From positions 310,001-374,000 of the forward strand of contig NZ_CP084469.1 in assembly GCF_020405205.1 (NCBI RefSeq): a DNA stretch of 64,000 nucleotides. Reading direction: 5' to 3'. The notes under the pieces were generated by a model. It made no database searches. It saw only the letters and a program-made list of their open reading frames with translations, and was not told the origin of the DNA. How positions within the stretch are numbered: position 1 is the first letter of the stretch; every line of letters starts with the position of its first letter. This DNA is from Natrinema salinisoli (GTDB lineage Archaea > Halobacteriota > Halobacteria > Halobacteriales > Natrialbaceae). This document shows positions 6,142 through 46,607 of this stretch, piece by piece. A program made the translations under genes and the position numbers.

Positions 6142-8709
6142 TTACAATTCGTCGGTGCCTTCCTCGAGTTCCCCGGGCGTCTCCGGTTCGATGTTCGCGA
6201 GACGCATGGCGTTGCCCGTCACGCCGAGACTCATCCCCATGTCGCCGACGACGACTGCGTGAATGATCGTCACGTAACCGAACGGCGTGCCGATCGCGAG
6301 GATCGCCTTGACCGCCAAGCTCGCCCAGATGTTCTGTCGAATGACGCCGTTCGCCGTGTTCGAGAGCCGATAGAGGTACGGCAGTCGCGTCAAGTCGTCG
6401 CCCATCAGCGCGACGTCGGCCGTCTCGAGCGCCGTATCGGTTCCCGCCGCGCCCATGGCGATCCCGACGCTGGCGGTCGCGAGGGCAGGGGCGTCGTTGA
6501 TCCCGTCGCCGATCATGGCGACGTGACCGCCGTTGTCGTCCTCGTCGCCCTCTCCTTCGAGTCGCTTGATCCACTCGAGTTTCTCGTCGGGGAGCAACTC
6601 GGCGTGGTACTCGTCGATTCCGACCTGTTCGGCGATCGCGCGGGCGGTCCCCTCGTTGTCGCCGGTGAGCATCACGACGCGGACGCCCGCGTCCTGGAGG
6701 CTGGAGACTGCCCACTTCGCTTCGGGGCGGACGCGATCCGCGACGCCGATGACGCCAAGCGGACCGTCCTCGGTGCCGACGACCACGACGGTCTTCCCCT
6801 CGGCCTCGAGCGTCGGGATGACTTCGCTCAGTACGTCGAGACACCCGTCGCGTTCGCAGTCGGGCCGGGAGTCGGTGTCCGCCGATTCGAGGACCGTCCC
6901 GCCGTCGGTCGTTGCGTGGACGTGCTCGAGGTCCGCCAGCCCCTCGAAGAGGGCGGGTTTCCCGACGTAGTGGGTCTCGCCGTCGATATCGGCGCGGACG
7001 CCCTTGCCGGTGAGCGCATCGAACCCCGAGACGTCGGCGTCGTCCGCGTCGAGCCCCCGTTCCGCTGCGTAGCCGACGATCGCTCGGCCGATCGGGTGTT
7101 CGCTCCGGCGCTCGGCCGCGCTCGCTCGTCGGAGGACGTCGTCCTCGTCGGCCCCCTCGAGCGGAACGACGTCGGTCACCGACAGATCGCCTGTCGTGAG
7201 GGTCCCGGTCTTGTCGACCGCGAGCGTGTCGCTCTCGGCGACCGCCTCGAGATGACGACCGCCCTTGATGAGGACGCCGTTGCGCGCGGCGCTGGTGATG
7301 CCCGAGACGACGCTGACCGGGGTCGAGATGACGAACGCGCAGGGACAGGCGATGACCAGCAGGGTCAGCCCGCGCAGGAACCACGTGTTCCAGGACGCGT
7401 CGACCAGTAGCGGCGGGCCGGCGGCGACCGCGATCGCGAGTACGACGACGATCGGCGTGTAGACGCTCGCGAACCGGTCGACGAACTGCTCGCGTTTGGT
7501 CTGCTCGCGCTCGGCGTCCTCGACGAGTCGAACGATCCGATCGATCGTCGAGTCGCCGGCCTCGCTCTCGACCGTAATCTCGAGATAGCCGGACTCCGCG
7601 ATCGTCCCGGCGAAGACTTCGTCACCCTCGGTCTTGTCCGCGGGCACGCTCTCGCCCGTGATCGGCGACTGATCGACCGCGCTCTCCCCGTCGACGACGG
7701 TACCGTCGGCGGGGATCTTCTCACCCGGCCGAACGACGACGCGGTCGCCGATCGCGAGCTCCTCGGCCGGGATCGTCTCCTCCGAGCCGTCGGCTCGCTT
7801 GACCGTGGCCGTGTCCGGCGAGAGGTCCATCAGCTCTCGCAGGGAATCGCGCGCCCGGTCCATCGAGAACCGCTCGAGCAGCTCGGCGATGCTGAAGAGG
7901 ACGGCGAGCATCGCCCCTTCGAAGGGGTGGTGGGCCGCGACCGCGGCGACGATGCCGACGCTCATCAGGAAGTCGATGTCGAGGCTCCGATTGCGCGCGG
8001 AGTAGTAGCCGTTCCGGAAGATCGGCGCGCCGGCGACGGCTGCAGTGGCGATGAACAGCAAAGCCGCGAGGTCGTAGCTCCGACCGAAGACCGAAAACAG
8101 GGTCGGATCGAGAGCGGGAACGACGAACTCGAGCGCCATCCCGAGGACGACGACGACGGCACCAGCGCCCGTGACGACTGCGCGCCGACTTTGCCAGACC
8201 GACTCGTCGGCGTCCATCGGATCGCCCCCGTCGCTAATCGGTGTCGCGTCGTAGCCCGCCGACCCGATCGCGTCGACGACCGTCTCGGGATCGGTAGCAG
8301 CATCGACCGTCACCGTCACGCGCCCCGACGTGGGACGGGTCTCGATCTCGGTAACGCCGTCGACGCCCTCGAGCGCGTTCTCGACCTTGCTCGCACACGA
8401 GGCACAGTCCATGTCGGGGACGGACACCGACAGCTCGGTCCCCGCCGACTCGATCGCGTACCCCGCCGCACGGACCCGATCGCGAACCGCGTCCTCGCTC
8501 GTCCGCGTCGGGTCGTACTCGACGACGAGCCGGCCGCTCGTCACTCGCGGGTCGAGGTCGTCGATCCCCTCGAGACGCTCGACGCTCTTTGTCACCTTCC
8601 CGGCACAGGAGGGGCAGTCCATGTCGGGTATCCGGAGCTCGAGAGTCCGACTCGAGCTCTCGGGATCCGTCTCCGAATCCGGCGGCGTCGGTGGGTGAGA
8701 GTCGCTCAT
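6142..8709 (-). CDS. P1B-type heavy-metal ATPase, Zn/Cd/Pb-type
   Basis: 855-residue ATP-driven metal exporter of the inner membrane. Two N-terminal metal-binding HMA domains carry DMDCPSC (Cys32, Cys35) and DMDCASC (Cys102, Cys105). Then come membrane helices, an actuator domain with TGES, the CPC helix (ACPCAFVISTP, near residue 455), the phosphorylation motif DKTGT (near 500), HP (SEHPIG), TGDN and GDGINDAP. CPC with S-x-P, a Lys in the next helix (LAVKAI) and Asp-x-Gly in the last (VVVGDMGMS) is the P1B-2 signature, pointing to Zn/Cd/Pb rather than Cu. A short Cys-containing insert (PDCERDGC) sits in the nucleotide-binding region. The HTH-10 regulator gene lies just upstream in the same direction. 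Confidence 0.93.
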   Translation of the reverse strand: MSDSHPPTPPDSETDPESSSRTLELRIPDMDCPSCAGKVTKSVERLEGIDDLDPRVTSGRLVVEYDPTRTSEDAVRDRVRAAGYAIESAGTELSVSVPDMDCASCASKVENALEGVDGVTEIETRPTSGRVTVTVDAATDPETVVDAIGSAGYDATPISDGGDPMDADESVWQSRRAVVTGAGAVVVVLGMALEFVVPALDPTLFSVFGRSYDLAALLFIATAAVAGAPIFRNGYYSARNRSLDIDFLMSVGIVAAVAAHHPFEGAMLAVLFSIAELLERFSMDRARDSLRELMDLSPDTATVKRADGSEETIPAEELAIGDRVVVRPGEKIPADGTVVDGESAVDQSPITGESVPADKTEGDEVFAGTIAESGYLEITVESEAGDSTIDRIVRLVEDAEREQTKREQFVDRFASVYTPIVVVLAIAVAAGPPLLVDASWNTWFLRGLTLLVIACPCAFVISTPVSVVSGITSAARNGVLIKGGRHLEAVAESDTLAVDKTGTLTTGDLSVTDVVPLEGADEDDVLRRASAAERRSEHPIGRAIVGYAAERGLDADDADVSGFDALTGKGVRADIDGETHYVGKPALFEGLADLEHVHATTDGGTVLESADTDSRPDCERDGCLDVLSEVIPTLEAEGKTVVVVGTEDGPLGVIGVADRVRPEAKWAVSSLQDAGVRVVMLTGDNEGTARAIAEQVGIDEYHAELLPDEKLEWIKRLEGEGDEDDNGGHVAMIGDGINDAPALATASVGIAMGAAGTDTALETADVALMGDDLTRLPYLYRLSNTANGVIRQNIWASLAVKAILAIGTPFGYVTIIHAVVVGDMGMSLGVTGNAMRLANIEPETPGELEEGTDEL

Positions 8710-8740
8710 TACTTGCCTCTACACACTCGTCACCTATACC

Positions 8741-8760
8741 GGTTATTTGGCGTGCGCCAA
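8741..8760 (-). promoter_or_regulatory. Putative operator at the P-ATPase promoter
   Basis: A perfect 6-2-6 inverted repeat, TTGGCGtgCGCCAA (8747-8760), abuts an AT-rich TATA-like stretch (AAATAACC on the minus strand, 8741-8747). That stretch is about 34 bp upstream of the ATPase ATG, the right spacing for a haloarchaeal promoter with little or no leader. A dimeric regulator bound here could block or assist TBP/TFB. The neighbouring cysteine-rich HTH protein is the obvious candidate, but the link is inferred. Confidence 0.5.
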
Positions 8761-8799
8761 CTCGATTCCGCTCGTGCGACGGGGTCGGTCGGGACCCCG

Positions 8800-9546
8800 T
8801 CAGTGACCCGCCGCGAGCGTCTCGAGCGAGTCGTCTTCCGTCACGAACGTCGTCGCGAGGCTCGCTTCGGCCCGTCGGAGGCGGTACGAGAGCGTCGATC
8901 GCGGCACGTTGAGTTCGTCCGCGAGCTCCGAGAGATCGATCCGTCGGGGCGTCTCGTAATACCCGTGTTCGACGGCTGCTCGTAATGCATCCCGTTGTTC
9001 GGGCGGAAGCGAATCCTCCGACTCGGGGCGGTTCCGGTCAGGATCGAGATCGGTCAGCCGCAGCATCTCCATGCCCGCACACTCGCCGACTTCGTCGCCG
9101 AGCGCGTCGAAGAAGTCGTGGATCGGCGCGTCGCTCCCGAGGACGATCCGCCACCGGTACCGCCGGCCCTCCCGGTAGGTCTCGAACAGTAGCCCCTCGC
9201 CGAGGTACTCGAGCGCGAGGTGAGGAACCGACGTACAGACGTCGGTGCGGTCCCAGTAGGTGTAGACGACGAGCTCGTCGCTCGAGCGATCGAGGACCTG
9301 CGTCTCGCAGTCGGCGCCGCAGTCGTCTCGAACCAGACAGTCCGCACAGTAGGAGGGCTCCCGATAGGCCGCCTCGAGGGCTTCGACTCCCTCCGCGGAG
9401 CCGGTCGCGTGATCCACGCGCCAGAGACTCTCCGACGTCACGTGACACGACAGCGACCGAACCGTCGTGTCCGGGTGGGCCTCGAGCGCGTCCGCGACCG
9501 GATTCGTTCCGGGGTCGTACTCGAGGGCGAAGACGAACTCTCTCAT
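8800..9546 (-). CDS. HTH-10 (Bat-like) regulator with Cys cluster, likely metal sensor
   Basis: 248 residues. The C-terminal ~60 form the HTH-10 domain of the bacterioopsin-activator family (ELADELNVPRSTLSYRLRRAE). The N-terminal part is a haloarchaeal sensor region with a compact cysteine cluster, YCADCLVRDDCGADC (spacing C-x2-C-x5-C-x3-C), suited to binding a soft metal. It is encoded 90 bp upstream of the Zn/Cd-type ATPase on the same strand, with an inverted repeat in the gap, which suggests metal-responsive control of efflux. Start at ATG 9546; a start nine codons further upstream is possible. The metal and whether it activates or represses are inference. Confidence 0.85.
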   Translation of the reverse strand: MREFVFALEYDPGTNPVADALEAHPDTTVRSLSCHVTSESLWRVDHATGSAEGVEALEAAYREPSYCADCLVRDDCGADCETQVLDRSSDELVVYTYWDRTDVCTSVPHLALEYLGEGLLFETYREGRRYRWRIVLGSDAPIHDFFDALGDEVGECAGMEMLRLTDLDPDRNRPESEDSLPPEQRDALRAAVEHGYYETPRRIDLSELADELNVPRSTLSYRLRRAEASLATTFVTEDDSLETLAAGH

Positions 9547-9724
9547 AGTGAGTACATGGGGCCGACGTGACAAATGGTTTCCCGCTCGCCCGACTCGCTA
9601 CCAAACACGACTCAACCAATGTACATTACCATTAGATATAATACTGTGACCGAACGAAATCAAAACGGAGGCCGCGTCTCCAGAGGTGGGGGCAGTGGAG
9701 GAACGAACGCCCCGGGTGATGGCA

Positions 9725-9810
9725 CACCCGAGACTGGCTTCCAAACCCGCGAGTGTTCAGGAAGCATGACGCAATACATTCCATCGGGACATAAACGTCC
9801 CACACGACAG
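9725..9810 (+). promoter_or_regulatory. Conserved leader region, copy 1
   Basis: 86 bases roughly 70% identical by eye to 46290-46377. Both precede a small ORF that overlaps a 54-residue zinc-ribbon gene. Shared blocks include CACCCGAG, GCTTCCAAA, AAGCATGA and ATAAACGTCCC. The core GGGAC-ATAAAC-GTCCC (9786-9801) can form a hairpin; copy 2 has GGGAT, which still pairs as RNA through G-U. An AT-rich TATA-like patch lies ~90 bp upstream (about 9635), so the block may be transcribed leader RNA. Alternatively ATAAAC is itself the TATA element and the rest is an operator. Confidence 0.55.
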
Positions 9811-9891
9811 TCGAATCGCCCGAAACAGCCATCCTCGGTACCGATTTCCCGATCGAGACGGCTCGTGGACCGTGGTCGCAATGGGGCGTGA
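9766..9891 (+). CDS. Small basic leader ORF, copy 1 (uncertain)
   Basis: 41 codons, rich in Arg, Pro and Ser. Its first 15 residues (MTQYIPSGHKRPTRQ) match those of the equivalent ORF in copy 2 (MIPYIPPGYKRPARQ). It ends 11 bases inside the zinc-ribbon gene, and copy 2 ends with a 4-base overlap, so translational coupling is possible. The substitutions between copies do not favour silent positions, so conservation may be of the nucleic acid rather than of a peptide. Confidence 0.3.
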   Translation: MTQYIPSGHKRPTRQSNRPKQPSSVPISRSRRLVDRGRNGA

Positions 9892-10045
9892 TCGATCGGC
9901 GTCCGAAGTCGAGTCCTCGAACCCCGTATGCCCGCGCTGTGGCGATCCCGTCACGTTCGTCACCGCCGTCGGACCCCAGACCGGCACCGCCAGTCCCTGC
10001 GGCTGTTCGGTCCCGCCCGGGCTGATCGAGTGCGAGAACGACTAG
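9881..10045 (+). CDS. 54-residue zinc-ribbon microprotein, copy 1
   Basis: Small protein with CPRCG (Cys17, Cys20) and a second pair PCGC (Cys40, Cys42), spaced to hold one zinc ion. The C-terminal 33 residues match the paralogue at 46443-46607 at about 26 positions, including TGxASPCGCSVPPGL. The first ~15 residues are variable and look disordered. Function is unknown; small CPxCG proteins in haloarchaea are often regulatory or protein-binding. Start at ATG 9881; an in-frame GTG lies three codons upstream. A GGGCTC/GAGCCC hairpin just after the stop (about 10050-10068) could end the transcript. Confidence 0.75.
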   Translation: MGRDRSASEVESSNPVCPRCGDPVTFVTAVGPQTGTASPCGCSVPPGLIECEND

Positions 10046-10327
10046 TTTCGGGGCTCTGTATCGAGCCCGGCGGTTGGTCGGGACCACCACCATCCCTCGA
10101 GTCGCTCGTCGATCGGACTGCCGAAGCTGGTCCCGAGTGTTCGGTATCGTAATCACGTAGCGAAAATGGCCGGGAGCGGGCTCCGAGCAACGCGAGGAGC
10201 GCGCGACTCGGGGGAGGGCAGGCACTCACCCGATACCCACCGCGAGCGAGTGAAACGAGCGAGCGGGCCGACGACCGACGTGGAGTGACGCGAAGCGTCA
10301 CGGAACGGAAGGAGGAGTGCTTTTAAT

Positions 10328-10376
10328 CGAAATTTTGCCGAGGGCCGCCGAAGGCGGCCCGCAGAGCAAAATTTCG
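10328..10376 (-). terminator. Large inverted repeat, likely terminator of the acyl-CoA dehydrogenase gene
   Basis: A perfect 11-bp outer arm (CGAAATTTTGC / GCAAAATTTCG) surrounds an inner perfect 8-bp stem GGGCCGCC / GGCGGCCC with a three-base GAA loop. It begins four bases after the stop of the minus-strand gene at 10381. A second hairpin (GTGACGC-gaa-GCGTCAC, 10285-10301) lies just beyond. The remaining 10046-10284 shows only GAGCGAG-type low-complexity sequence and no gene. Confidence 0.6.
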
Positions 10377-10380
10377 TTCG

Positions 10381-46015: not shown

Positions 46016-46289
46016 GAGTATACGATACTGGCGGCCGGCGCGTATAACCCCTCCGTCGGTTCGCAGGGAGTGAATCCGTCGGAGAGACGGGCTCGAGTCC
46101 GCCCACAGCCGTCCCGGTCACTCGGACTCGCTCGGGAACGTCGATGGCTCGAGCAGTCGGAGGCAATCGGGCTCGAGCCTCCATCGAAAATTCCAATTTT
46201 CATCGGTAATTATAAATTTGAACAGGTTAGGGATTAAATTGGAAGCGAGTCTCATAGAGGGCTACATCGAAATGCCCAGGTGCTGGAAC

Positions 46290-46377
46290 CACCCGAGGCT
46301 TGCTTCCAAATCCCAGACCGGGATTCGCAAGCATGATTCCATACATACCACCGGGATATAAACGTCCCGCACGACAG
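46290..46377 (+). promoter_or_regulatory. Conserved leader region, copy 2
   Basis: 88 bases similar to 9725-9810, in the same position before a small ORF and a zinc-ribbon gene. The core is GGGAT-ATAAAC-GTCCC. An AT-rich TATA-like patch (AATTATAAATTT, about 46208) lies ~80 bp upstream, as in copy 1. A near-perfect dyad GAAAATT-CC-AATTTTC (about 46186-46201) lies beside it. Retained spacing of all parts between two distant loci argues for a functional leader. Confidence 0.55.
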
Positions 46378-46446
46378 CCGGTTCACCCGCCACGACCGTT
46401 ATCGCCTCCGAATTCGGGGTCTCGAGCGATGGGGATGGTTCGATGA
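46333..46446 (+). CDS. Small basic leader ORF, copy 2 (uncertain)
   Basis: 37 codons, Pro/Arg-rich. It shares YIP-G-KRP-RQ with copy 1 near the start and ends with an ATGA overlap on the start codon of the zinc-ribbon gene. See copy 1 (9766) for the caution that the nucleotide sequence, not the peptide, may be what is conserved. Confidence 0.3.
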   Translation: MIPYIPPGYKRPARQPVHPPRPLSPPNSGSRAMGMVR

Positions 46447-46607
46447 AGAGCGACGTCGACGCGAGTCCCGAGCGGAATTCGTCCCCGCTCCCCGACTGCC
46501 CTACCTGCGGCGAGCCCGTCGCCTTCGTCACCGTCACCGGTCCGCACACCGGCTCCGCCAGTCCCTGCGGCTGCTCCGTCCCGCCCGGCCTGCTCGAGCG
46601 CGACTAG
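46443..46607 (+). CDS. 54-residue zinc-ribbon microprotein, copy 2
   Basis: Paralogue of the protein at 9881, same length. Cys pairs CPTCG (Cys19, Cys22) and PCGC (Cys42, Cys44) with TGSASPCGCSVPPGL between and after; the N-terminal ~18 residues differ entirely. ATG 46443 overlaps the TGA of the leader ORF by four bases. A GC-rich inverted repeat follows the stop (about 46607-46632). Function unknown; see copy 1. Confidence 0.75.
   Translation: MKSDVDASPERNSSPLPDCPTCGEPVAFVTVTGPHTGSASPCGCSVPPGLLERD

Follow-up and report, generated by a model that had tools for sequence, protein, structure and literature searches.

The window analysed here, a 64,000-nt stretch of the Natrinema salinisoli genome, contains two short open reading frames (ORFs) with a zinc-ribbon-like cysteine pattern, raising the question of whether such ORFs are genuine genes and whether they stand alone. 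The initial annotation had described two paralogues of equal length with near-identical cores, and this description holds. Both ORFs encode 54 aa on the + strand (copy 1 at 9881..10045, copy 2 at 46443..46607), are separated by 36,562 nt and have cores (CPRCGDPVTFVTAVGPQTGTASPCGCSVPPGLIE in copy 1, CPTCGEPVAFVTVTGPHTGSASPCGCSVPPGLLE in copy 2) that are identical at 84/102 nt over 34 codons. Differences between the cores fall mostly in third codon positions, with 29, 31 and 24 of 34 bases identical at positions 1, 2 and 3, respectively. Eight DNA matches were found in the organism's own genome and every one of them was later placed in the same type of unit, confirming that the zinc ORF is a real gene and not a chance reading frame. 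Comparison of the two copies with their Natrinema salsiterrestre orthologues gave dN/dS values of 0.33 and 0.37, ratios that are rough given two close orthologue pairs and 4 to 15 substitutions per comparison.

The encoded protein is a putative zinc protein. Cys 17, 20, 40 and 42 are invariant in 39/39 aligned relatives, in the layout CPxC..(19)..CxC, where the second knuckle is PCGC. Net charge is negative in 48/50 of the zinc proteins listed. No family was found at the cut-off in Pfam or NCBIfam, and none in PHROGs or PADLOC; the best weak family match, to ribosomal S27ae (E 0.0071), lies far below the cut-off. An AlphaFold2 model of medium confidence (pLDDT 73.5, pTM 0.47) has three short strands together with a helix at the C-terminus. 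Foldseek comparison of this model with the PDB gave a best E of 0.26, and the weak top matches were ribosomal chains, which may hint at RNA binding – a lead, not evidence.

Similar proteins are known from other haloarchaea. For example, the C(P)XCG zinc-finger micro-proteins of Haloferax volcanii, as presented in the accessible part of PMC11241148, are likewise under about 70 aa, carry two Cys motifs and are mostly of unknown function. However, while the window copies with their 54 aa fall within this size range (<70 aa), their relatives run longer, and in place of two C(P)XCG motifs there is one CPxC(G) and one CGC, the second motif being PCGC (CxC). The genes considered here also come as RNA-led, apparently coupled pairs, and no such leader is described in that part of the paper.

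This RNA leader lies immediately before the coupled ORFs. All eight own-genome matches carry an upstream block reading GGAAGCC...GGCTTCC...GGAAGC-ATG, or close variants of it, with GGGATATAAACGTCCC following 20 nt on. With up to one mismatch allowed, there are 21 occurrences of this 16-mer in the genome and none in a reversed control, and the layout of the unit is identical at all 21 sites. A covariance model of the leader (R1) gave 28 matches in the genome, one of them antisense to another, and hence 27 loci. The zinc ORF is present in 25 of these; the exceptions are L119, which looks decayed, and L123, which is of a recombinase type. Counting two copies was therefore an undercount. The view of the ORFs as a real, uncharacterised zinc-ribbon-like small-protein family stands as far as the family and its absence from databases are concerned, and proved incomplete in that it overlooked how many copies there are (some 25), their position at the end of a micro-operon, and the RNA leader. 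The idea of an isolated zinc microprotein gene in two copies, lacking any notable upstream element, is practically untenable: although the ORF is a genuine gene constrained at the protein level, leader, leader ORF and overlap are common to 25 copies, which already contradicts this reading. That there is a real gene within a micro-operon we hold with great confidence.

Two observations concern the surroundings of the zinc ORF. After it, a second small CPDCG...CDDC ORF is found in 6 of the first 21 loci (L022-L025, L028, L033). Copy 1 adjoins an HTH_10 (Bat-type) regulator gene and then an apparent heavy-metal P-type ATPase with MDCPSC motifs (window 6142-9573, - strand), a possible metal context seen at copy 1 only. 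A general link between leader units and Bat-type HTH_10 genes was considered and set aside, as the genome has 49 HTH_10 matches and 3/27 leader loci lie within ~1 kb of one by eye, which was judged too few.

The unit has a constant order: a TATA box, 30 nt, a folded RNA leader of ~100 nt, the leader ORF and, last, the zinc ORF, with the leader about 100-220 nt upstream of the latter. In copy 1, where all elements lie on the + strand, a TATA-box-like element (9637..9642) is found 30 nt before the first base of helix P1. The R1 match, which comprises the leader and the first 38 nt of the leader ORF, spans 9661..9803 (E 2.9e-29, 118.5 bits, for a sequence in the training set). Folds and covariation place the 5' strand of P1 (S1, GGAGGCC..GTCTC) at 9667..9680, the P3 hairpin (GGGGC..GCCCC) at 9689..9713 and the P4 hairpin (GGGTG..CACCC) at 9714..9729. 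The 3' strand of P1 (S2, GAGAC..GGCTTCC, 9730..9742) can pair with S1 or with S3, a stretch of nine nt directly upstream of the start codon that ends in GGAAGC (9757..9765) and is the alternative partner of S2. The leader ORF (9766..9891) encodes 41 aa beginning MTQYIPSGHKRPTRQ, with a tail that is not conserved as protein. Inside it lies the P6 hairpin (GGGACATAAACGTCCC, 9786..9801), 20 nt after the A of the ATG, and the start of the zinc ORF overlaps its stop by 11 nt.

Copy 2, also on the + strand, repeats this anatomy: a TATA-box-like element at 46211..46215, 30 nt before P1; an R1 match at 46235..46370 (E 8.1e-30, again for a training-set sequence); S1 (GGAAGCGAGTCTC, 46241..46253) and S2 (GAGGCTTGCTTCC, 46295..46307), both placed by folds; and S3 (46324..46332), ending in GCAAGC before the ATG and placed by sequence and S2:S3 pairing. 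The leader ORF of 37 aa (46333..46446) and P6 (GGGATATAAACGTCCC, 46353..46368) were read from the sequence, and the zinc ORF follows with an ATGA overlap of 4 nt. The same geometry was scored in 57 loci: the 27 of this genome and 30 others, each from a different genome. In 57/57 loci, the distance from the leader-ORF start to P6 is exactly 20 nt, and a TATA-like element begins 30 nt before P1 in 47/57. Across these units and beyond, the most conserved and most widespread part is the RNA leader, not the zinc ORF.

Single-sequence folds of the leader give a three-way junction in which P1 closes P3 and P4. In a MAFFT alignment of 29 leader sequences, 90.4% of cells are paired and there are 9 double-change cells compared with 2.3 in shuffles, 0/500 of which scored as high. 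A second alignment of 81 R1-match rows, which includes one spurious antisense row and is biased towards R1 because it was fitted to the model, has 92.5% of cells paired, double changes in 24/27 pairs and 165 double-change cells compared with 30 in shuffles (0/500). Both alignments thus have the conserved secondary structure with compensatory changes expected of a regulatory leader. In two of six extra own-genome copies (L118 and L121) P6 reads GAGAC..GTCTC, which preserves the stem but alters the peptide from G to R and from P to L. One helix of the first RNAalifold consensus (columns 17-19/38-40) was judged wrong, and the structure from single-sequence folds was used instead. Rfam 15 gave no match to the leader in window 9560-10380 up to E 5, nor in six loci up to E 1. 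That the RNA structure is real we regard as virtually certain.

Whether this structure is static or switches between states is a separate matter. Because S3 resembles S1, either can serve as partner of S2. S2 and S3 co-vary in distant families: GGTCTTCC occurs with AAGACC-ATG, GGGTTC with GAACCC-ATG, GGCCTTC with AAGGCC-ATG, and GTTGTC with AACAACC-ATG. In a permutation test that ignores shared ancestry, S2:S3 complementarity was 15.31 in 49 distant loci compared with 11.59 (sd 0.42) for permuted partners (0/500), and 14.42 compared with 11.49 in all 106 loci (0/500). It was barely above the permuted value in the 57 Natrialbaceae-like loci (13.67 compared with 13.07), whose similarity in sequence accounts for the small margin. 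When S1 is blocked, S3 finds an upstream partner in 100/106 loci, as opposed to 295/1060 when S3 is shuffled. Computation thus points to an alternative pairing at the start codon, of the kind found in riboswitches, and suggests that the leader is probably a two-state gate.

A real leader need not be a switch, since a fixed structure could protect the 5' end and either hold the start codon open or set a constant initiation rate. P1, P3, P4 and P6 are strongly conserved, P1 is present in the single-sequence minimum-energy fold of 72/106 loci, and P6, at +20, could assist initiation on its own, all of which would suit such a role. That P1 is missing from the remaining minimum-energy folds also counts against the two-state reading. 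A fixed structure, however, does not need S3 to mimic S1, and both the covariation of S2 with S3 in distant loci and the readiness of this helix to form once S1 is blocked speak for two states. We therefore consider a purely static leader unlikely, though not negligibly so.

The gate, if it is one, would act on the leader ORF, which raises the question of how the zinc ORF behind it is reached. The leader ORF was also considered as a second conserved microprotein, an idea that was rejected: only its first ~15 codons are conserved and these overlap P6, compensatory changes in P6 alter the peptide, and dN/dS relative to N. salsiterrestre exceeds 1 in both orthologue pairs (1.2 and 3.6, equally rough ratios, as against the low values of the zinc ORFs given above). 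Judged from the sequences compared, the leader ORF preserves its frame and its end, not its sequence. Its length varies from 20 to 79 codons in 50 scored loci, yet its end stays in register; at L036, for example, it has just 20 aa and the ATGA overlap is retained. In 49/50 of these loci, all with a recognised zinc ORF, the zinc-ORF start and the leader-ORF stop overlap by 4-11 nt (4 nt in 25, 8 nt in 21, 10 nt in 1 and 11 nt in 2), which is the codon overlap associated with translational coupling. In the one exception, L053, the scripted start is wrong and an ATGA overlap is visible. The scoring left out L020, a CPCYG variant that was missed, and L038, L039, L042, L048, L119 and L123, in which the motif was not recognised.

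Individual loci depart from the standard layout. At L042, the leader ORF appears joined in frame to the final part of the zinc ORF (..SPCGCVVSPELFDD), as if by internal deletion. L054 has two tandem leader units ~490 nt apart (1499-1637 and 1993-2131), in the second of which the start is broken (ACG) and P6 is weaker.

Termination-reinitiation at overlapping genes has been validated for 9/9 H. volcanii pairs, according to the accessible part of PMC6728339, and coupling of the leader ORF to the zinc ORF is very probable. In our view, the leader ORF serves more to deliver ribosomes than to encode a protein. A partial parallel is brz-brb of Halobacterium salinarum, which, in the portion of PMC3184054 consulted, likewise joins a small zinc-finger protein to a small basic ORF on a single transcript. 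The same portion reports that a related pair overlaps by 9 bp and that transcription of one pair of this type begins right at the start codon (0 bp). In brz-brb, however, the zinc gene precedes the basic one, whereas in the present units the order is reversed, a structured leader precedes the basic ORF, and the sequence of that ORF is not conserved.

Taken together, our preferred reading, to which we assign a probability of roughly two in three, is that the zinc ORF is the last gene of a leader-gated micro-operon whose genes are coupled in translation. Transcription would start a few bases before P1, going by the spacing of the TATA element, and the transcript would fold into the three-way junction, with P1 enclosing P3 and P4. 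Alternatively, S2 would pair with S3 and form a hairpin ending at the AUG of the leader ORF. The start would be open with P1 formed and hidden with S2:S3 formed. A ribosome initiating on the leader ORF would meet the P6 hairpin 20 nt later and, on reaching the stop that overlaps the zinc-ORF start, would re-initiate there. The leader would thereby gate the entire unit, its opening being handed on by translational coupling, and would probably decide whether the genes behind it are translated. Some signal – a metal, a protein or the state of the ribosome – would set the switch; the small zinc protein itself, acting on the RNA, is a plausible candidate.

Translational riboswitches and ribosomal-protein leaders are built on two mutually exclusive helices, one of which hides the start region, and are placed in modular fashion before unrelated genes. 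The present leader shares the mutually exclusive helices and the modular placement, but differs in that no Shine-Dalgarno masking is seen, the coding sequence itself contains a conserved hairpin, and Rfam holds no match.

The leader is widespread among haloarchaea. R1 detected it in 107/391 genomes of the class, and a broader covariance model (R2) in 255/391 haloarchaeal genomes and 78/86 genera; the E-values of both models are rough, and copy counts from the R2 survey, in which 8 candidates were scored per genome, are lower bounds. In a phylum sample, 50/392 genomes had a leader match, all of them inside the window's order. No leader was found outside this order in the samples searched, where 8 candidates were scored per genome and weak members may be missed. 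Genome G261, which belongs to another family, has 21 leader matches, perhaps a second, independent expansion. At one of its loci (L175), the leader is followed by a 45-aa CARCG..GCPSW microprotein and then by a ~175-aa protein without a recognised family.

Copy number varies widely, from 0 to about 21 pattern matches per relative genome, with 27 loci in N. salinisoli, and one leader of this genome precedes a recombinase gene. Both observations would suit a mobile repeat that carries ORFs about, with the hairpins as its ends. Nevertheless, in N. salsiterrestre the counterparts of the window copies share a contig and have retained their spacing, at about 36.9 kb, and it is structure and start-codon geometry, not sequence, that are conserved across 10 families, making this explanation very unlikely.

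To learn what the leader controls elsewhere, the first ORF behind it was read at 22 distant loci and 29 more, with classes assigned by eye; every leader read stands at an ORF start. The classes are a window-like GxKxP leader ORF, a ~150-aa CQVCG protein, SWIM proteins, a CRNCG/CARCG microprotein present in many copies, and a few others. Behind the GxKxP leader ORF, a tyrosine recombinase follows in 8/10 loci, by eye. In Pfam tests, the recombinase of L163 matched PF02899 above the cut-off (E 2.6e-10) and that of L123 matched PF00589 below it (E 4.1e-5). L123 lies in the window's own genome, at about 780 kb, where a divergent leader heads the recombinase-type operon. Another recombinase operon, L127, encodes CPYCGTPVEGLDARGPDQHTFDPCGC, which has the same pattern as the window's zinc protein. 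For SWIM, the one protein tested matched Pfam PF04434 above the cut-off.

In the CQVCG class, the second gene is RAMP-like, weakly so in Pfam, PADLOC and NCBIfam (PF03787 at E 0.0067, below the cut-off, for one of two; PADLOC Csm3 at E 0.02-0.04), and its relatives are found in 105/391 genomes. From its published description, we tentatively identify this gene with HRAMP, an array-less, CRISPR-like haloarchaeal system (accessible parts of PMC8730458 and PMC12669027). In 30 genomes, chosen for having a leader, 13/18 strong RAMP matches lie downstream of a same-strand leader, at a distance of no more than 1.5 kb. This proximity, and the lack of arrays in such systems, would fit an RNA that also acts in trans, for example as guide or ligand of a RAMP complex, with the coupled ORFs as passengers. 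However, while a RAMP-like gene stands behind many distant leaders, the RAMP protein has no match in the window's genome, with its 27 leaders; in addition, each leader read sits at an ORF start, and the genomes counted were preselected. A role in trans is therefore highly improbable, and a leader acting in cis on the ORFs behind it remains the preferred reading.

Leaders are not confined to chromosomes. SWIM proteins of the leader-associated kind occur in five tailed-halovirus records. In BJ1, HRTV-DL1 and Humcor1, inspection by eye and folding found leader anatomy with GCTGTCC...GACAGC-ATG before the operon; R2 scored BJ1 at 11 bits (E 0.06-0.16) and did not report HRTV-DL1 or Humcor1. By anatomy, the leader thus appears to precede early operons of three tailed haloviruses. 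Among four IMG/VR loci reached via SWIM-protein relatives, one contig (L196) gave a clear R2 match (33.6 bits, E 3.2e-7). A core-pattern scan of IMG/VR was rejected, as R1 scored just two of the 4 stretches matched, and these weakly. A Haloarcula halobia plasmid also carries a leader match (63.2 bits). Its CDS is annotated from 1609, with the leader-adjacent ATG at 1501, so that public gene starts behind the leader may be wrong. For ORF7 of Halorubrum virus BJ1, the annotation gives a valine start at 204, and the leader anatomy suggests an ATG near 255-258 instead.

As of 2021, the sole experimentally determined natural archaeal riboswitch was the fluoride one of Thermococcus (accessible part of PMC8241225). 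The open-access literature searched, including parts of PMC2864571 and PMC8241225, holds no description of the leader. The leader matches no Rfam family, is, as far as this search goes, previously undescribed and is a larger find than the zinc ORF. A far broader scenario, which we regard as doubtful, is that a pan-haloarchaeal RNA gates a dispersed regulon of accessory genes, made up of viral early, recombinase and RAMP defence-like operons and families of zinc microproteins. The zinc microproteins would bind the shared leader fold, the 25 host copies would cross-regulate one another, and they could interfere with leader-using viruses.

In summary, a leader present in 255/391 haloarchaeal genomes and at 27 loci here, heading viral, recombinase, RAMP and zinc-protein operons, would, if the reading is true, amount to extensive translational control that has so far gone unrecognised. 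It would also make the function of many haloarchaeal microproteins testable, by disturbing one RNA fold and watching the coupled genes.
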